A DNA stretch of 64,000 nucleotides from Bacteroidia bacterium (GTDB lineage: Bacteria; Bacteroidota; Bacteroidia; Flavobacteriales_D; Cryomorphaceae): contig JAUICL010000002.1 in NCBI GenBank assembly GCA_030427905.1, positions 248,001 to 312,000 of the forward strand. Direction: 5' to 3'. Below, piece after piece: positions 19,197 to 30,482 of this stretch. A program made the position numbers and the translations under genes. Every line of letters starts with the position of its first letter. The stretch's first letter is position 1. A model generated the notes under the pieces. The model was given only the letters and a program-made list of their open reading frames with translations. It was not told the origin of the DNA and did not search any database.

Positions 19197-19416
19197 AGAA
19201 ATCTTTTAGAACAGATAAAGTTAACCAAAGATGTGGGTATTTAGTTTCAGAAAGGCCTGTTAAATATGGTTAACACCTCGTTTGAGTGCCAATATACACT
19301 GGGAATTGACGGAGCACCAGTGTCATCCGAAACCTTTTGATCACCAATTCCGTAGAATGGCAGTTAAGACCAGCAGTCAACCTTTTTTAAGGAGATTGCG
19401 ACATAGCTGAAGGTCA

Positions 19417-21051
19417 ATGAAAAACGAAAGACTGTATGTGATCGATGAGAAGAGTTGGTGCTTGATTTCAGATCAATACTCCAGCCTTTACAGGGATACA
19501 TTCTTGTTCGTAACCGAGAACAAAGGAACGAACACAGAAGCGCTCGACGTATACATCGAATCCTTTTTGTACTACACCCAACTGCTCGAACTCCACGGTA
19601 TGGATCTGATCGAGAAAGGGGCAGATATTATCTATTCATTCGCTCGCTGTATATGGGTGAGCAAGCTTCGGAAGCGAAATGTTGACGTGAATTTCGTTGT
19701 GCACAAGCGATCGTATTTTGAAATGGAAGACGCCTTCCACGAGATAGATTTAATCGCTAAACGCAGCGAAGCAACGGCAGAAAAGCTCGCATCAGTCGGA
19801 GAACCATCGAGAACGCTGATTCTCGAGCACATCGGACAGGGAACGCCACTCAATCAACTCTTGGAACGTCTTAGTTTTTCATCGGAAGAGCGAGCGTCCA
19901 ACCAACTTATTTCAGGTCTTCACAAGCTAATCAAGCTAAGTGAAAACAAGGATATACATCTCAATGAAGAAAAATTTGCCGAAGCGCTGCGGGTGCTTGA
20001 GGGCGAAGAAGGAAGTAGTTTTAGCGACAAAGTTTCGCTGACCGTTATTTCAAGAACGGTTGCAATGGTTAAGAACCACGTGACGCGATCCAATAGAATT
20101 GCTCACTTCAAAGAATTGTCGATTCACACCGAAGCCCAAATGGCGAATGCCAGCTGGGGTAGTCAAGAGAAGACTGGTCGGTATGTCAAATTAGCCGCGG
20201 CGATTGCTCTGGCTTGCACGTCGGCTGTTATAGCTTCATTGCTCACTGCTTTTGGTGTCCTATCGTCAGACAATAGCCAAGCAAGTTCAAAGCCATCAAC
20301 TGAAACGAAGATTGAATCCCACGTTGTAAAGCTGGAGGAGAAGGAAGAGCCGCTTGAAAAAGTAGAAGCCAATTTTACGGAAGAGCAGTTAAAAGTCGAG
20401 GTTCCAAATGACGAACTGGAAATAGAAGCTCCAACTAGTCAGCCTGAACTAGATAAACCTGAAGTGGATGAAAGGGAAGAAGTGGAGTCGAGTGAAACAG
20501 GAGATTACGACGGCGACTTTACGGCTTTTGCCATCTCATCTGATGGATATTTAATCACTACTGCCGATGCGGTAGCTGGAAAATCGTCGCTACGCCTGGC
20601 AGCAGAAGGCAGCGGAATGAACATCAAAGGAAGGGTAGTTTTCGCCGACAAGGAGAAGAATTTAGCTCTATTAAAGTGTCAGTTTCCCGATGGGACAAAA
20701 GTTCCATTTCGTCTCCGTCCAGAAGCGATGGCCGACTGTGCCAATTGCTTTCTTGCAGGCTTTGATCGAGAAGCTTTTTCAGTGCTCGCCATTGATAGCA
20801 TGGATGTTGAAAATGCCTTTTCTGGATCACCAGTATTCGGCGACTATGGGCAGGTAGCCGGGATGATTGGACGAAACGGAGAATTTCTCGATGTGGAAAT
20901 CATGTCAGCATTTGTATTGGAGTTCAATACTCGAAATACCGAAGAAATTGAGTTGGTCGAAATGAACGGACTTTTCTATTCCGATCAAGATGCTCAAATC
21001 AGGAAGGTTAGCCCTTTCATTTGGAAAATTCGTAAAGATTCGTCGATTTAA
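19417..21051 (+). CDS. ECF-sigma-like / transmembrane / degenerate trypsin-like fusion protein
   Basis: Unusual single-chain protein of 544 residues. Residues 20-87 resemble sigma region 2 of Bacteroidota ECF factors (block CIWVSKLRKR near 78-87), residues 122-174 resemble region 4 (VGEPSRTLILEHI then LSFSSEE), residues 180-250 look like an anti-sigma-type linker, 257-281 is a membrane helix, 282-365 an acidic linker, and 366-500 an HtrA/trypsin-like domain. In that domain the nucleophile block FSGSPVF keeps Ser469, but the catalytic His position is Asp384 and the Asp position Asn415, so it is probably not an active protease. Predicted topology puts the sigma part in the cytoplasm and the protease-like part in the periplasm. 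Function is unknown; a membrane-tethered sigma factor is a plausible reading. Confidence 0.75.
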   Translation: MKNERLYVIDEKSWCLISDQYSSLYRDTFLFVTENKGTNTEALDVYIESFLYYTQLLELHGMDLIEKGADIIYSFARCIWVSKLRKRNVDVNFVVHKRSYFEMEDAFHEIDLIAKRSEATAEKLASVGEPSRTLILEHIGQGTPLNQLLERLSFSSEERASNQLISGLHKLIKLSENKDIHLNEEKFAEALRVLEGEEGSSFSDKVSLTVISRTVAMVKNHVTRSNRIAHFKELSIHTEAQMANASWGSQEKTGRYVKLAAAIALACTSAVIASLLTAFGVLSSDNSQASSKPSTETKIESHVVKLEEKEEPLEKVEANFTEEQLKVEVPNDELEIEAPTSQPELDKPEVDEREEVESSETGDYDGDFTAFAISSDGYLITTADAVAGKSSLRLAAEGSGMNIKGRVVFADKEKNLALLKCQFPDGTKVPFRLRPEAMADCANCFLAGFDREAFSVLAIDSMDVENAFSGSPVFGDYGQVAGMIGRNGEFLDVEIMSAFVLEFNTRNTEEIELVEMNGLFYSDQDAQIRKVSPFIWKIRKDSSI

Positions 21052-21116: not shown

Positions 21117-21151
21117 AAAACCGCCTCCGAGCTATGACGGAGGCGGTTTTT
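21117..21151. terminator. bidirectional terminator between the sigma-fusion gene and trxB
   Basis: A 13-bp perfect stem (AAAACCGCCTCCG / CGGAGGCGGTTTT) with an 8-base loop and T-rich tracts on both strands lies between two convergent genes, so it can end both. Confidence 0.9.
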
Positions 21152-22502: not shown

Positions 22503-24248
22503 CTATAGTCGCTGTTTGCGATATGCAACCATCTTTGCAAAAAACTGCTTCTGTAGGCTTAAAATAGCATCAGAAGTACTCTCCCCTGATGTGTGTTCTG
22601 AAACAAATACAAATTTTTGTTTCGTTGAATTAATTCTATTGAGTTCAGTTAACTTTTGGTTTACTACAGTTGCATCTGAGAAAACACTCCTTAGTAACAT
22701 TTCGGCCATTTCTTCACTCCAAATAATATCTTCAGGAATCCGACCAGGAAGGTAATATACATTACTTAAGTAATAGTCCAGAAATGATTTCAATAGTTCA
22801 AGCTGCTGTTCTCGATTACTGCCTCCTTGACCACTATCTACAGAAAACTTAATTTCTACTCCAGTTTGTACTCTGATTTTTGCACTGAGATTTTCTATGG
22901 TTAAGTCAGTTGTCGGAATACTTCGCCAATCGAAGTGTGGGTTTTCTGGATTCTGATCACCATCAAAGAATATGAAATCATGTGAGTCATTCTCTCGGCA
23001 AAACACGGGAATAAACTCCTTTTTGATAACAGATTCCCCACCCGGATTGTATTTCACATTAAACAAGTTTTTTGTTTCACTGCCCATTTTACTTAACACC
23101 TCAGATATAATCTCTTTTGCTAAAATGTCTTCTACAACTATATTTTTTCGATTATCTATCTGGAATTCAATATGAAAGAATGCTTCTTCAGGGGTGAGAT
23201 TCTCTTTTATCAAAAATCTTCCGTTCCTAGGGTTTTGATAAAAAACTTTTATGGCTTCTTTCGGAAGCCCTTTTACAATTGAAGGTGAGTGACTGGTTAA
23301 AACAATTTGATGCTTTTTGCGCATTATCTGATCCAAAAGAAAAATAGTTAGCCTCCTTTGCGCTCCTGGGTGCAGTGAAACTTCCGGCTCATCGAGCAGT
23401 ATCAATGAGTAATCTTCAGCAGTGAGAACTTCCTTAACTAACCTGACAACGGCTATTTCACCGCTGCCAGCAACTGCCTCCGAGTATTTAGCAAAATTCG
23501 TTTGAAACAACACAGAATACCCTTCGTTCCGGAAAAGTTCATGAAACACTGAAACCCCACGTGCATAATCTCTTCCCAGAATAAAAGAAATCCATCGTAA
23601 CTCTTCCGAAGATAAAACATCAACAGGCTTATTTAAGGTTCTCGTACTCGAGTTGATTGTACGTTTCTCACCGGTAAAAATTTTATTAAGCGAAGAAGAT
23701 TTTCTTCTTATGAATTCTTGCTTGTTTCTTGCCCGACTATACTTTAAATTCCCGAAATAGAAGTACTTATCAAATGCACTTAGTTCAGAGCGAAAATCTA
23801 GATAAACAACATTTTTCACAATTGGACTATCTCGCTCATTTCGCCTAGTCCTCATACCCGCCCAAGCCAGAGGTCTGCTCGTTTCCCAATAGTTTGGATC
23901 GTTTTGTCTTTTGATTCTAGCCTTTATTACTTCGCGAGTTTGATCATCTTCCTGAAATGAGTACCAGAATGAATGTCTCTTTCGCTGTTCATCATAATAA
24001 CTAACAGGATCAACTTTTGTATCGAACCAAAATTTATACGGAGTGTAGCCCTCAGGTGCTCCATACAGGGCATGTAAACATGAGCTTTTACCACATCCGT
24101 TTTGACCAATGAACACTGTCAAAGGAAAATCGAAATTTATTCGTGTATCTATTTCTATGTTCCTGTAAAAGGGAAATTTAACGAAGTCAATATACCTCAT
24201 AAATTGTCCAGAACTTCTTATTGTTTGAATTGTCTCTATCAATTCCAT
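22503..24248 (-). CDS. OLD-like AAA ATPase with C-terminal TOPRIM nuclease region
   Basis: Last gene of the four-gene island. The 581-residue protein has an SMC-like ATPase with Walker A GQNGCGKSS (48-56), a Walker B LILLDEPEVSLH and H-loop LTSHSPSIV, as in OLD family enzymes. After it comes a TOPRIM-like region with a Glu in VVEDILAKEII and a DGD in IFFDGDQNP, the expected metal-binding residues of OLD nucleases. It is likely an ATP-controlled nuclease. It starts 6 bases after the stop of the receiver-domain gene and is probably translated with it. A nuclease effector role in anti-phage defence is inferred. Confidence 0.85.
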   Translation of the reverse strand: MELIETIQTIRSSGQFMRYIDFVKFPFYRNIEIDTRINFDFPLTVFIGQNGCGKSSCLHALYGAPEGYTPYKFWFDTKVDPVSYYDEQRKRHSFWYSFQEDDQTREVIKARIKRQNDPNYWETSRPLAWAGMRTRRNERDSPIVKNVVYLDFRSELSAFDKYFYFGNLKYSRARNKQEFIRRKSSSLNKIFTGEKRTINSSTRTLNKPVDVLSSEELRWISFILGRDYARGVSVFHELFRNEGYSVLFQTNFAKYSEAVAGSGEIAVVRLVKEVLTAEDYSLILLDEPEVSLHPGAQRRLTIFLLDQIMRKKHQIVLTSHSPSIVKGLPKEAIKVFYQNPRNGRFLIKENLTPEEAFFHIEFQIDNRKNIVVEDILAKEIISEVLSKMGSETKNLFNVKYNPGGESVIKKEFIPVFCRENDSHDFIFFDGDQNPENPHFDWRSIPTTDLTIENLSAKIRVQTGVEIKFSVDSGQGGSNREQQLELLKSFLDYYLSNVYYLPGRIPEDIIWSEEMAEMLLRSVFSDATVVNQKLTELNRINSTKQKFVFVSEHTSGESTSDAILSLQKQFFAKMVAYRKQRL

Positions 24249-24254
24249 TGAACA

Positions 24255-25937
24255 CTAATGTGGGAGATCAATACCGACACGATGGCCATAACCGAATGAT
24301 TCGTTTGCAATTCTTTGAGCGTAGTTCTCTTTCAGAACAATCAAATGCAGTAACTGTATTTCATGACCACAATAATTTATTTTCAACTGGCTTATATCGT
24401 TGGTTGAAATGTAACTAGTAAAGGGTTTACACTGCCACTTAATGCTCTTCGGTTCATTTTCTTTTAGGATAAAAGAGTGGAAGCCCGTTTCAGCTGCTTG
24501 GATAGCTTGAAGGCCATTAAAGCTTGCTCCTTTTACAAAGTAAAAGTTATCGTTAATATTCTCCGAATGAAGACAATCGCAGGACGGGGTTATACAAAGA
24601 AAATATTCGTTTGGATTGGCCGAATTCAGAAACAGATCCCCAAAGCGCAAGCTCGGATCACTGCGATCAAACACTTTGGATGTGGACACATATGCACAAT
24701 ACTTAATCAATTCATTTACTAGGGTAGTATCTGAGTCTGTAAGCTGCTTTGGAGGTTGGGGTTCTAAAGAATCATAGCGGTGTCCTGCAAACTTCAATAT
24801 GCTTGGCTGTTCGCTTATCTTTTGCTGGTGTAATTCACCTATCCAGCTTTTTAGAATGAAATCATAGATTGCGCGAAGGTCGTAATCTTGTCCATTGTTC
24901 AAAGTTCTATAATTCTCTAAATGGTAGAAGAATGCTTTCTCATCTGTCTTTGAAAACTGTGTACCTATTTTGGAAAACGACTCGCGAAGTCGATCTTTTA
25001 ATTCTAGAGAAAGAATGTTGAGATAGTTATGCGGATTGCTCACAACCGCATTTGCGAAAACAGTGAACAAATTTTCCGGTTTGATACCGTCTTCTTTTTC
25101 CTGTTTATGATAGACAAGCACTATCGTTCCATTCAAGTTAAACGCATGTTCGGCTGTGGTGATACGTTCTATTCGAAATGGTAATTTGATTTCGGATTCC
25201 TGACACATGGCCATCATTGACAACTCCAATAGACCATCGACATGATTTTCATTAATTGTTTTTACTGCAGCAGATACTTTCGCTTTTATCGCGGCTTCTC
25301 CAATTTGCCCTTTTATCGCAAAACTTTTACGAAAGCTTGTCATGAGTTCGGCCTCGGTTTTTTCTCTGTTGTTCCAATTGAAGAAATATTCGTAAAATGT
25401 TTCAGTATTTTCTTCGAGAAAAATATCAGCTTCAATGGAATCCGGGTCATCTGATATAGCAGAGTAGTTTGCCTTGAGGGCAGAAGAAACTGTTTGAAAC
25501 ACATCTGCGTCATAAGGTGAGAACTCCCGTATCAGTGCCTTACTGACTGAATGAAGATCAGCTGTTGATGTATAAACTACTACAAAAGGAATTTTCTTTG
25601 AATTAACGACCTCTGTGAGTATTTTGATGGCGTTGTCAAAATTACCATCTGCGTCAAGCTCCCAATCTAATATGAGAAGATCCTTGTTGGATAACATAAC
25701 ATCACTGTTCCAAGTCTCTTCAAAGGTTGTAAATCGGTAGATATCCAAGTCGCATAAGCCATCTTCACGAAATGATTTGTGAAGCTTTCTCGGTTCATCC
25801 ACAATCCACTCTGAGGGTTCTTCCTCATAAGCTGCAGCATAGCGATCATCTATGCAAATAGCGGAGCGTATTGAGTTCCGAATAACTTCAGTTGCTATAT
25901 CCTCAAACGCGGGCTCGTTTTCTGTAGTTTCGTCCAT
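24255..25937 (-). CDS. receiver-domain protein with large Cys-containing C-terminal region
   Basis: A 560-residue protein. The ATG at 25935-25937 is preferred over an upstream in-frame start because it lies 10 bases after the stop of the two-GHKL gene and leaves a compact N-terminus. Residues 20-145 match a receiver fold: acidic pair Asp30-Asp31 (in AICIDDRY), phospho-acceptor Asp91 (in LLILDWEL) and a switch Thr/Ser at 123-125 (VYTST). The rest is alpha/beta-rich and unknown, with a conserved-looking Cys block CITPSCDCLHSENINDNF near residue 460. It has no DNA-binding domain. It is likely to be the partner of the adjacent kinase-like protein. Confidence 0.8.
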   Translation of the reverse strand: MDETTENEPAFEDIATEVIRNSIRSAICIDDRYAAAYEEEPSEWIVDEPRKLHKSFREDGLCDLDIYRFTTFEETWNSDVMLSNKDLLILDWELDADGNFDNAIKILTEVVNSKKIPFVVVYTSTADLHSVSKALIREFSPYDADVFQTVSSALKANYSAISDDPDSIEADIFLEENTETFYEYFFNWNNREKTEAELMTSFRKSFAIKGQIGEAAIKAKVSAAVKTINENHVDGLLELSMMAMCQESEIKLPFRIERITTAEHAFNLNGTIVLVYHKQEKEDGIKPENLFTVFANAVVSNPHNYLNILSLELKDRLRESFSKIGTQFSKTDEKAFFYHLENYRTLNNGQDYDLRAIYDFILKSWIGELHQQKISEQPSILKFAGHRYDSLEPQPPKQLTDSDTTLVNELIKYCAYVSTSKVFDRSDPSLRFGDLFLNSANPNEYFLCITPSCDCLHSENINDNFYFVKGASFNGLQAIQAAETGFHSFILKENEPKSIKWQCKPFTSYISTNDISQLKINYCGHEIQLLHLIVLKENYAQRIANESFGYGHRVGIDLPH

Positions 25938-25947
25938 ATGTTGAAAC

Positions 25948-28827
25948 TTATTTTGAATCTTTTTCTTTTTTAATGATAAAACAAGCTCCTTTAAATTTGT
26001 TGACATCTTCTTGATTAGACGCAAAAATCTCATAACCAATAGATTGTAGGTTCTTCTTTGCCAGATACAGACCTATTCCGCGACCGTCTCTCTTTCTGGT
26101 AAAAAACAATGTGAAAATGTCTTCTAAGTGCGAATCGTCTATTCGTTCTCCCGAATTCATAATCCGAATTTCATCACCCGCGAGTTCTATTCTTATTTCT
26201 CTGTTTTCAACCGGAATGAGCCAATAGTTCGCGTTGTTAACAATATTCAGAAATATTGGCTTGATGATGGAATCGTAAGTGAAGAACTCATACATACGAA
26301 AGGCGTCGTTTACCGAAAAATCAATTCGATATCTTTTAAAGTCATTTTTGAAAAATTCCTTTATATAGTTTTCTATTTGTCTGCCGGTGATCACTTCTCT
26401 CGTTCTGCGGCTGGTTCTGTATAGTGGTTTGAGCAGTTTATAGTTTCCTTCGAGGTGCTGAAAAGCTCCTTTCAACTGTTTGAATGCTGATTCAATTCCT
26501 TTGTTTTTTCTAGTGTACTGATCAATTTCATTTACAGCATCATTCATTTGGGAGTACATGACATTGAATTGGTGATCGATAATTTCTATTGACATGCCCA
26601 ATTGGGCCAACTCTTCATAGTCGTTCAGTTTCTCTTCCAGGTTTTGGTTTTGCTTTTCGTACCAAGCCCTTAGAAAATCATCATCAACATCTATTTGCAG
26701 GTTCGAAACATGGTTGATGAATCCACCAATGGAGTGTTCAATTTGGCCTTTCTGATCCTCGGCTATCCGATCGAGCAGGCTTATTTTCGCAGATACAGAC
26801 TCGGTATCGTCATCAGCCACAATTTTGGTGTTTTCACTCTGTTCGATGAAATGGTCTACCTGCGCAGTTTGCTCCTCTGATAAGAGGTTATTAACGCGGC
26901 CAAAGGCATCTTTGCAAATAGCTTGATAGCTGGAGAATAGTTTCTCGATGTATTTTATATGAGATCGAAATTTTTCGCTGTATTCGAGTTTTAAGTTTTC
27001 CGAGTTGATTCTGCTTCGTGTGTCTTCAACTAATCTTATGCAAGATTGAACCTTGTCATTAACTACCGCATATTCGTTTTGATATTCTAGATAAGCTTTT
27101 TCCTGAATTTTTGTGATTTTAACAGCTTGGGGTTTGAAGAGTCTCAACCCTCTGATTTGTGCTCTTTTGTCTTCAAGCCTTGAAACGAGTCTGTTGTAAT
27201 TGTTGTAATTAATTTCTAACTGTTTTGCTTCTTCGGAAAGCTGGTCAGCTAAATCAGCTATTTCGTTTTCCAACTGATCGATGAGCGGCTTATTCAGTTT
27301 CAATTGCTCAAGAAATGCCTTTTTCGTTTTAGCATTCTTCTTTTTTGCAGCAGCCTGCTGGCGGTTGTATTTTTCTTGAATTTCCGACAATTGAGTTTGA
27401 CGAAACGTAGCTTCTTCTCCTTCTGGAGTTTTTCGCATGTATCGTTTGGCGATATCTACAAACAAGTCGATTAGGTCTTCTCGGAATTCTCTGTAGGCTT
27501 TGTTCTGAATGAACCCCTCTCTTCCGGCTTTGTCCTTGAGATTGGGATTCTTATCTCTTTTCAAGTCTATATATCCGACAAACCTACGATGAGCAAAGAA
27601 GTAATACCCTGCACCTAAATTGCGTCTCTTTTCAAAATCTAAAAAATCGTATTCGGTACGACCATATGGTAACACACGAAAGCTGTCTCTATAAACATAT
27701 AGTCCTCCGAAGGTCTCCAGCTTATTATTCAATGATCGGAATTGCTCAGGATTTAACAAGGAGCTTTTTTGTTCGCCCTCCAACGACCCCCACTCGAGAC
27801 TAAAAGGGCCATAAGAAGTTTTGCCAGGAGGACGGTTTGGTTTAAAGGAGTATTTCTCACGATGATTAAACACTCTTATCTCTCCTGTAAAAAAGCCGTT
27901 CTCATCAAACTCTCCTTTCAGCCAGTGATCGGCATTACGCATTTCTTCTTGAGTAAAAAACTCATCTATTAAGTCATATTTCCCGGATGCATCGTGTAGA
28001 TAAAAATGAGTCTCAAAATCTTTTTTGGTGTCCTTAAGATCATTGTGCATCCCACTTAGAGATGCTCTCAAATAGGTCAGTGCCGAGTCCTTTTTCAGAT
28101 CAATCCGATCTTTGTTGGATAGTTCAACCAACTGATCATGTGGTGTGAAAATGAGAAAGGTCGTGCCGTGATGCTCTTTCTGCATAAACTTCTGGACAAC
28201 GTCCTCATGCAAAAAGTCTGGTGTGCTGAAAGGCTTCCAATCTTCTAGCATCTGCTGCCTTAATTCCTTTTGCTCAGACCACTGATTTTCATCTAGATTC
28301 TTGAGAAACTCGGCAACGGCTTTCTTTTCATTCGTCTTGAATTCATCATTTGATGTGAATGTAAAGAGAGGAATGTTTAGGTCGTCCAGATAGAAGTCAT
28401 AGTTATCAAGTACTCTCCAATCAATTAATAGAGCATTCGCTTTCTGCCCTTGCTTTTTGGATAGCATTAAGAGCTGATTTCCAAGGTAGGAGACGGAAAG
28501 TCGGCCAATGCCTTTTTCGCCCATGGGAGCTCTTCGTTCAAGCCCAAAATGTGGCTCTAACTTTTCTCCCCTGGCTTTAGAATCGGTTCCGAGGACAAAC
28601 CACTTTTCAAGTATGTCAGTTTCAGACATGCCAAACCCATCGTCTGAAATGAGGAAAACCGGATTTTTATTGTCTTTATATGTTTCGAGGAATAATCGAC
28701 ATTCTAGATGCTTTGCATAAGCATCGTATCCGTTCTTCCAGAGTTCGGTAATAGCTGTTGGGAGGTCGGCAATTTGACCTTTACCCAGAAGTTCTACTGC
28801 TCTTGCCTTTGCTCTGAATTGTGCCAT
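25948..28827 (-). CDS. double-GHKL protein: MORC/HSP90-like N-terminus and histidine-kinase-like C-terminus
   Basis: A 959-residue ATP-binding protein with two GHKL modules. The N-terminal one has Glu28/Asn32/Asp35 (in AITELWKNGYDAY), DDGFGM (62-67) and GEKGIGR (103-109), as in MORC/HSP90/MutL-type ATPases. A long coiled coil follows (about 460-720). Then comes an H-box-like block IEIIDHQFNVM with His752, and a histidine-kinase-type HATPase domain with NIVNNANYW (861-869), NSG (891-893), FFTRKRDGRGIGL (908-920). Known biology links MORC-like GHKL proteins to restriction systems. It overlaps the methyltransferase gene by 34 bases, so translation is coupled. Confidence 0.85.
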   Translation of the reverse strand: MAQFRAKARAVELLGKGQIADLPTAITELWKNGYDAYAKHLECRLFLETYKDNKNPVFLISDDGFGMSETDILEKWFVLGTDSKARGEKLEPHFGLERRAPMGEKGIGRLSVSYLGNQLLMLSKKQGQKANALLIDWRVLDNYDFYLDDLNIPLFTFTSNDEFKTNEKKAVAEFLKNLDENQWSEQKELRQQMLEDWKPFSTPDFLHEDVVQKFMQKEHHGTTFLIFTPHDQLVELSNKDRIDLKKDSALTYLRASLSGMHNDLKDTKKDFETHFYLHDASGKYDLIDEFFTQEEMRNADHWLKGEFDENGFFTGEIRVFNHREKYSFKPNRPPGKTSYGPFSLEWGSLEGEQKSSLLNPEQFRSLNNKLETFGGLYVYRDSFRVLPYGRTEYDFLDFEKRRNLGAGYYFFAHRRFVGYIDLKRDKNPNLKDKAGREGFIQNKAYREFREDLIDLFVDIAKRYMRKTPEGEEATFRQTQLSEIQEKYNRQQAAAKKKNAKTKKAFLEQLKLNKPLIDQLENEIADLADQLSEEAKQLEINYNNYNRLVSRLEDKRAQIRGLRLFKPQAVKITKIQEKAYLEYQNEYAVVNDKVQSCIRLVEDTRSRINSENLKLEYSEKFRSHIKYIEKLFSSYQAICKDAFGRVNNLLSEEQTAQVDHFIEQSENTKIVADDDTESVSAKISLLDRIAEDQKGQIEHSIGGFINHVSNLQIDVDDDFLRAWYEKQNQNLEEKLNDYEELAQLGMSIEIIDHQFNVMYSQMNDAVNEIDQYTRKNKGIESAFKQLKGAFQHLEGNYKLLKPLYRTSRRTREVITGRQIENYIKEFFKNDFKRYRIDFSVNDAFRMYEFFTYDSIIKPIFLNIVNNANYWLIPVENREIRIELAGDEIRIMNSGERIDDSHLEDIFTLFFTRKRDGRGIGLYLAKKNLQSIGYEIFASNQEDVNKFKGACFIIKKEKDSK

Positions 28828-29903
28828 TTATTCCAATGTTCTTGTATAGAAAGTCCTATGGCTTTCGCCAGTTTAGGGGGTACAGCATTGCCAATCATGG
28901 TCGCAATGGCTCCTTTGTTCGTTGAGTGAAAGGTGTAGTTCAATGGGAAAGATTGAAGGGTAGCCCCTTCGCGAAGGGAAATTCCTCGATCTTGCTCAGG
29001 GTGAGAATATCTTCCAGTACTAGTATATAAAAATCGAGTCGTAATAGTTGGAGCCGGCTTACTCCATGCCATTCGCCCATAAACATCATAATGGCCATCA
29101 TGATTTTTATAACACTCTAGTTGAAGTTCTGGATCGTCTGCCCAAGCACTTCTAGATCCTCCGTTCTTGGGTGTTCGCCTTATACGTTTTTGATTCAAAT
29201 CAGATAAGCTTGCGGAAGAATGCAAAAATTCAGAATCATCCCTTGTACCGGCTATTATCTTTGGAAATTGAGAGTAATCACCAATGGCCTGCTCTACTGT
29301 AACTATCTTATCCTTATCTCGTTTTTGCTTAGGTAGCGAGACACTCTTATTAATTCTACTCGCTACAAGGACAAATCTTCTTCTGTTTTGTGGAACTCCA
29401 AAGTACTTTGCGTTCAAAACATTCTGATCAAAAACGTATCCCAGCTTTTTTAATGCAGTTTTAAAACGGTGCAATGGACTTCCTTTTTTTGTCTCCAGTC
29501 CTGGTACGTTTTCGATAAATATGAATCCTGGCTGATAGTAAACAATAAATTCTTTAAAGTCATCCAACAATAAGCGTCCCTTCTTGGATTTCTCTTTATC
29601 AGACTTGAGATTAGAAAAATACTGACAAGGACTGCAGCCTACGAAAATCAAACTATTGTCAAATCTCTTTATCGGCACCAGCTCACTTAGTTTTTCTGGA
29701 GTAAGTGATAGTTTGGAAACATCTTCGTTTATAAACTTAGATTTATTATTGGTCTCATATGTTTTTTTGAACTTCGGATCTATATCCAGTCCACACAGAA
29801 CTTTTACACCAACTTGCTGGAAGCCGCATGTAACACCTCCTGCACCACAGAAGAAATCAACGGCTTTCAGTTCACTGAAATGAGATTCTTGTTTACTTTT
29901 CAA
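28794..29903 (-). CDS. DNA cytosine-C5 methyltransferase
   Basis: First gene of the island operon; transfers a methyl group from SAM to cytosine C5 in DNA. The 369-residue protein has motif I DFFCGAGGVTCGF (16-28), motif IV with the catalytic Cys93 in GCSPCQYFS, motif VI FIENVPG, motif VIII QNRRRFV and the C-terminal IGNAVPPKLA block. The target-recognition region between VIII and IX is of ordinary size, so a single target site is expected. The start codon is TTG at 29901-29903; no in-frame ATG precedes the first motif. No restriction endonuclease of classic type is present beside it. Confidence 0.93.
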   Translation of the reverse strand: MKSKQESHFSELKAVDFFCGAGGVTCGFQQVGVKVLCGLDIDPKFKKTYETNNKSKFINEDVSKLSLTPEKLSELVPIKRFDNSLIFVGCSPCQYFSNLKSDKEKSKKGRLLLDDFKEFIVYYQPGFIFIENVPGLETKKGSPLHRFKTALKKLGYVFDQNVLNAKYFGVPQNRRRFVLVASRINKSVSLPKQKRDKDKIVTVEQAIGDYSQFPKIIAGTRDDSEFLHSSASLSDLNQKRIRRTPKNGGSRSAWADDPELQLECYKNHDGHYDVYGRMAWSKPAPTITTRFLYTSTGRYSHPEQDRGISLREGATLQSFPLNYTFHSTNKGAIATMIGNAVPPKLAKAIGLSIQEHWNKWHNSEQRQEQ

Positions 29904-30400: not shown

Positions 30401-30408
30401 TGTTTTGT

Positions 30409-30482
30409 CGGGGTGAGAGGATTCGAACCTCCGATCTCACGCCCCCCAGACGTGCACTTTAACCGGACTAAGCTACACCCCG
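30409..30482 (-). tRNA. tRNA-Pro, anticodon GGG
   Basis: A 74-base cloverleaf. The acceptor stem CGGGGTG pairs with CACCCCG, starting with the C1-G72 pair typical of bacterial tRNA-Pro. The anticodon stem CACGT / GCGTG carries the 7-base loop CTGGGGG, anticodon GGG. The T-loop GGTTCGAATCC is standard. CCA is not encoded. It lies at the right edge of the AT-rich island, a common integration position, though no flanking copy of its 3' end was found. Confidence 0.95.

Follow-up and report, generated by a model that had tools for sequence, protein, structure and literature searches.

The locus raises the question of what a protein can do that carries a sigma-like N-terminus, a single membrane helix and a degenerate protease domain in one chain. 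In the window, the stretch of 64,000 nucleotides analysed here, this protein of 544 aa is encoded on the plus strand by one ORF (19417..21051), and orthologues that are likewise single ORFs occur in 8/8 genomes of the family to which the window belongs (f1; a second family of the same order is denoted f2). The first-pass annotation had the ORF, its coordinates, the residues Asp384, Asn415 and Ser469 and the single membrane helix right. The gene is flanked by a divergent S41 protease gene (C-terminal processing protease family) and by trxB; a terminator-like hairpin (21117..21150, minus strand) lies between the fused gene and trxB, and the gene looks monocistronic. No TonB-dependent receptor gene adjoins it. 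Elsewhere the window contains an RNase P RNA (class A) at 1237-1624, a tRNA at 30408-30482 and a low-GC block at 22503-29903 with an AAA/OLD-like ATPase, a Response_reg_2 protein, an HEF_HK/HATPase protein and a cytosine methyltransferase-like ORF, which looks like a defence island.

All parts of the protein are encoded on the plus strand. The membrane helix (about residues 258-282; 20188..20262) is a single hydrophobic segment with its peak at residues 259-277, and is followed by an acidic periplasmic linker (residues 283-365; 20263..20511; 27 D+E versus 8 K+R) and the trypsin-like domain (residues 366-544; 20512..21048). Trypsin_2 is the sole Pfam match of the window protein (E=4.7e-7), leaving no receiver domain in that search. 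The His and Asp of the catalytic triad are replaced by Asp384 (in TTADAV) and Asn415 (in KNLALL), with Ser469 present in AFSGSP, in agreement with the earlier description of an HtrA/trypsin-like pseudo-protease. The domain resembles DegS/HtrA and catalytically dead HtrA-like domains in its Trypsin_2 fold and predicted periplasmic location; it differs from DegS/HtrA in that no PDZ domain was found in the window protein and the triad is lost.

The N-terminal part consists of a sigma region 2-like part (residues 15-87; 19459..19677) and a sigma region 4-like part (residues 128-175; 19798..19941), connected by a linker (residues 88-127; 19678..19797). The sigma part of the window protein has no Pfam or NCBIfam sigma-model match of its own. 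Its ancestry is established through its relatives: separate sigma genes match residues 17-190 (E 5e-12 to 1e-8), 9/10 examined short separate sigma genes match Sigma70_r2 and TIGR02937, and the latter model is matched directly by 3/9 fused proteins (best 2.3e-5). Profile-profile comparison of seven f1-only sequences with 21 split sigmas gave a probability of 99.8% (E=1.6e-27), so that the sigma-derived N-terminus first proposed from the window alone is confirmed by way of the family, and ECF sigma-70 homology spans both regions 2 and 4. A profile search of the PDB recovered no sigma factor with the f1-only sigma sequences and recovered sigma with the split ones. AlphaFold models from two-sequence alignments, too weak to judge the fold by, reached a pLDDT of 55 and 35, their Foldseek matches being noise, and the region 4-like part was modelled as a helix-turn-helix at a pLDDT of about 85.

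Homologues with the parts in separate adjacent genes, for which the first-pass annotation had proposed a search, were found across Bacteroidia. In other families the relatives are two adjacent genes on the same strand, an ECF sigma gene (∼190 aa) and an anti-sigma gene, the product of the latter combining an N-terminus that resembles anti-sigma factors with a membrane helix and a trypsin domain. Such split pairs numbered 67 in Bacteroidia (66 intact ones were analysed), and in most of them the genes overlap or lie less than 25 bp apart; L064, L065, L084, L091 and L111 are examples. The NCBIfam 'anti-sigma factor' model NF052375 is matched by 6/19 second genes (best 3.8e-6). Since the relatives consist of a sigma gene and an adjacent anti-sigma gene, and the segment preceding the membrane helix occupies the position of the anti-sigma domain, the window protein is a sigma/anti-sigma fusion: by descent from the split relatives, an ECF sigma and a membrane anti-sigma in one chain. 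In f2 the anti-sigma domain is detectable, the juxtamembrane region matching split anti-sigma domains (95.3%, E 2e-8). The same region of f1 shows no similarity to them (0.2%), and because of this the anti-sigma domain of f1 (residues 178-257; 19948..20187 in the window) is claimed by position only; no recognisable anti-sigma domain is present in the window protein on comparison with the split ones. Other ECF sigma genes of f1 (L122-L133) also adjoin anti-sigma-like genes that are laid out alike and have a TPR or another domain in the periplasm, and would represent one modular anti-sigma scheme.

The fused form occurs in 8/8 f1 and 2/2 f2 genomes and was seen in no other family among the matches listed from 399 order, 395 class and 395 phylum genomes, sets that overlap and are samples, several genomes being draft assemblies. 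In f2 the fused gene is likewise transcribed divergently from S41-DUF1573, two genes for secreted proteins being inserted between them. Presence throughout both families with a matching gene order therefore indicates that the fusion probably arose once, as a single ancestral event of f1 and f2. A single clade of fused proteins is not rejected by the tree (AU p 0.585), which by itself fits one or two fusions. It is very highly probable that a class-wide operon, made of an ECF sigma and a trypsin-type membrane anti-sigma, became fused in the common ancestor of the two families.

The split operons, as direct ancestors, have their parts arranged as in the fusion (sigma, anti-sigma domain, membrane helix, trypsin domain), but differ in being two genes with an intact triad and recognition helix in 66/67 and with a promoter motif of their own. 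In the intact pairs the triad His and Asp are each present in 66/66 and the Ser in 65/66, and the sigma-4 recognition helix AK.QKYKC..RLK is conserved at 63-66/66. In all 10 fused copies the recognition helix is lost and the triad is mostly lost and never intact; Ser469 of the window copy is shared by only one f2 copy, Pro or another residue standing at this position in the other f1 copies. The net charge of the recognition-helix segment falls from +5.2 in split sigmas to +1.5 in the fused proteins, and the recognition helix of the window protein (residues 155-173) is degenerate and no longer one with basic DNA-contacting residues. The split pair L025 / L057 (genome G021) is degenerate in both helix and triad and still consists of two genes, and represents an intermediate without fusion. 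The protease triad and the DNA-reading helix are thus lost together in every case seen, in the fused copies and in L025. The window protein has also lost the Gln of region 2.2 (Ile47). This was considered as proof of a dead sigma factor and dropped; a change of this Gln to His is also found in the ECF paralogs L122-L124, which have a basic recognition helix, so losing only this Gln is not enough to disable a sigma factor.

Purifying selection on the sigma part is strong. Among close f1 members this part has a pN of 0.14, saturated synonymous sites and 77-80% identity, compared with 46-47% identity in the pseudo-protease. Within the sigma factor of split families, sigma-4 is the most conserved region (0.73-0.83) and the linker the least (0.30-0.42). 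In f1, conservation is highest in the linker (0.63), which carries a family-specific FEMEDAFHEI, and that of sigma-4 (0.51) lies below the strongly conserved sigma-2. The five sigma-4 positions that we take to face DNA, by analogy to E. coli sigma-E, show a conservation of 0.92 in split sigmas versus 0.38 in f1; the linker figures set beside them are 0.37 in split sigmas versus 0.76 in f1. The basic and aromatic residues R77, W80, K86 and R87 of sigma-2 are invariant.

The promoter has changed along with the protein. Split operons carry a GGTTAC-N14-16-GTAT motif, mostly 27-56 bp upstream of the sigma gene and in about half of them by strict pattern; its GTTAC core occurs in 32/67 (shuffled expectation 0.3). 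The motif is absent upstream of all f1 fused genes. Instead, AAC-N16/17-CGTA precedes 8/8 f1 fused genes versus 0/67 split operons, a dyad found after inspecting the same sequences and in eight genomes that are related. The longer GAAAC form is present in 6/8, and in the window GAAAC-N17-CGTA, an ECF-type promoter-like dyad, lies on the plus strand at 19329..19354, 88 bp upstream of the start codon. Among the dyads shared by five genera, GAAAC-N16/17-CGTA ranks best (5/5; shuffles at most 3), and the spacers are not conserved. A further motif, TTAAC-N5-TTAAC (19259-19273, some 77 bp ahead of the S41 protease gene), is kept in f1 and f2 and was seen in one genome each of two other families; it was rejected as belonging to the fused gene and attributed to S41, with which it stays in genomes where the two genes are not neighbours.

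In number, the stricter GAAAC-N16/17-CGTAT shows no excess in f1 genomes. Of 64 matches, the fused genes not included, 33% fall immediately before a gene start versus 4% of control positions, and the motif recurs across genera before similar exported-protein genes (L204-L273). By names assigned by eye, these encode a MORN/YwqK-like protein (G000, G001, G004), a lipoprotein-like protein (G002, G004), an NGDFxxW-type secreted protein (G004, G005) and a GldK-like lipoprotein (G000), and OmpA/TPR-like proteins are also among them. They possibly form a regulon under ECF control for the envelope or type IX secretion. The f1 promoter and its recurrence before exported-protein genes therefore suggest an ECF-type envelope regulon of which the fused gene is a member. 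Among the other ECF genes checked, the same promoter was found at one locus only (L183); a match to AACC-N-CGTC before another ECF gene probably lies in coding sequence and was discounted.

We tentatively favour, at a little short of an even chance, the reading that the fused protein is a sigma mimic tethered to the membrane and belonging to an envelope regulon; the more specific form, a trans-envelope sensor-regulator with both effector ends silenced and placed within the regulon of another ECF sigma, is put forward slightly more cautiously. The chain would stay in the inner membrane with its sigma part in the cytoplasm and the pseudo-protease in the periplasm, promoter reading and protein cutting both having presumably been lost. 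The conserved sigma-2/linker surface would bind a putative partner, by analogy to PhyR most likely an anti-sigma factor or another regulator acting on a true ECF sigma, and binding events at the pseudo-protease in the periplasm may alter this contact. Since the fused gene would itself belong to the ECF-controlled envelope regulon, it is proposed to give feedback. PhyR is a sigma mimic whose own gene lies within the regulon of the true sigma (PMC8103513). It is alike in having an ECF fold with degenerate promoter- and core-contacting regions, the core-contacting loss in the window protein being the weaker one and confined to region 2.2; PhyR differs in being a soluble response regulator, where the window protein has a membrane helix, a pseudo-protease and only putative anti-sigma binding.

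The first-pass annotation had read the protein as a one-chain device whose tethered sigma part is released, perhaps by proteolysis. That it is one chain, tied to the membrane and sigma-derived has stood, and its anti-sigma ancestry had been overlooked; it is doubtful that a released half would act like an ordinary sigma factor, since the promoter-reading helix is lost and the DNA-facing positions vary within f1. A working tethered sigma of the IutY type, in which a periplasmic signal leads to two-step proteolysis and release of the sigma part, is the main rival, somewhat less probable than the mimic. Such a sigma would transcribe its own gene and the envelope regulon from GAAAC-N16/17-CGTA, its -35 preference having changed with the recognition helix. 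The kept GTA core of the -10 and the changed -35 match a kept sigma-2 and a changed sigma-4, the sigma part is strongly constrained, and the invariant R77, W80, K86 and R87, which count against a mimic, are what a -10-opening sigma would keep. ECF genes are commonly autoregulated, and the scarcity of this promoter at other ECF genes, L183 being the only other locus, would fit autoregulation by the fused protein better than mimicry. On the other side, the sigma-4 DNA-facing positions differ among f1 members despite an identical -35, a variable face on a constant element that would favour the mimic, and Lys and Arg contacts are lost. IutY, whose sigma part is released by proteolysis with Prc, a C-terminal processing protease, and RseP (PMC5411451), is a precedent, and the divergent neighbour here is a processing protease of this kind (S41); every relative searched has S41, though, and in f2 it lies about 5 kb away, so this neighbourhood alone means little.

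A membrane scaffold or adaptor unrelated to transcription, with the sigma fold and pseudo-protease reused as binding modules, would account for the degeneration of both effector ends and for the new f1-specific FEMEDAFHEI between regions 2 and 4 being the most conserved part; it is unlikely, the kept sigma-2 signature and the ECF-type promoter suggesting an ECF circuit. That the gene is a decaying relic of the sigma/anti-sigma operon is very improbable. Triad, recognition helix and anti-sigma signature have been lost, and two f1 copies, both from incomplete genomes, are truncated or shortened, but the gene persists in 10/10 genomes of two families with its promoter in 8/8 f1 genomes and strong purifying selection on the sigma part; with sigma-2 and linker so strongly conserved, the fused gene is therefore no relic.

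One-chain sigma/anti-sigma proteins as such are already known, namely IutY, ECF48/52/53 and part of ECF36 (PMC8999054, section 3.5.3). IutY of Pseudomonas putida (ECF243) likewise joins an ECF sigma and a membrane anti-sigma, but has the periplasmic domain of a cell-surface-signalling anti-sigma, a TonB receptor partner and a working sigma part. ECF48, ECF52, ECF53 and part of ECF36 also fuse sigma to a membrane anti-sigma extension; the first three differ by actinobacterial ZAS-type C-terminal extensions and the ECF36 members by N-terminal DUF2275 extensions. The trypsin-type periplasmic domain, the double degeneration and the new promoter are undescribed in the literature searched, which covered few subscription papers.

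The split operons make up a widespread and apparently undescribed ECF system of Bacteroidia, in which the anti-sigma has an intact trypsin domain of its own and which has a predicted promoter. From two intact genes through a degenerate pair to the fusion, the locus and its relatives offer a traceable series of how a sigma/anti-sigma switch becomes a single regulator. If the mimic reading is true, sigma mimicry would extend past the alphaproteobacterial PhyR to a membrane sensor.
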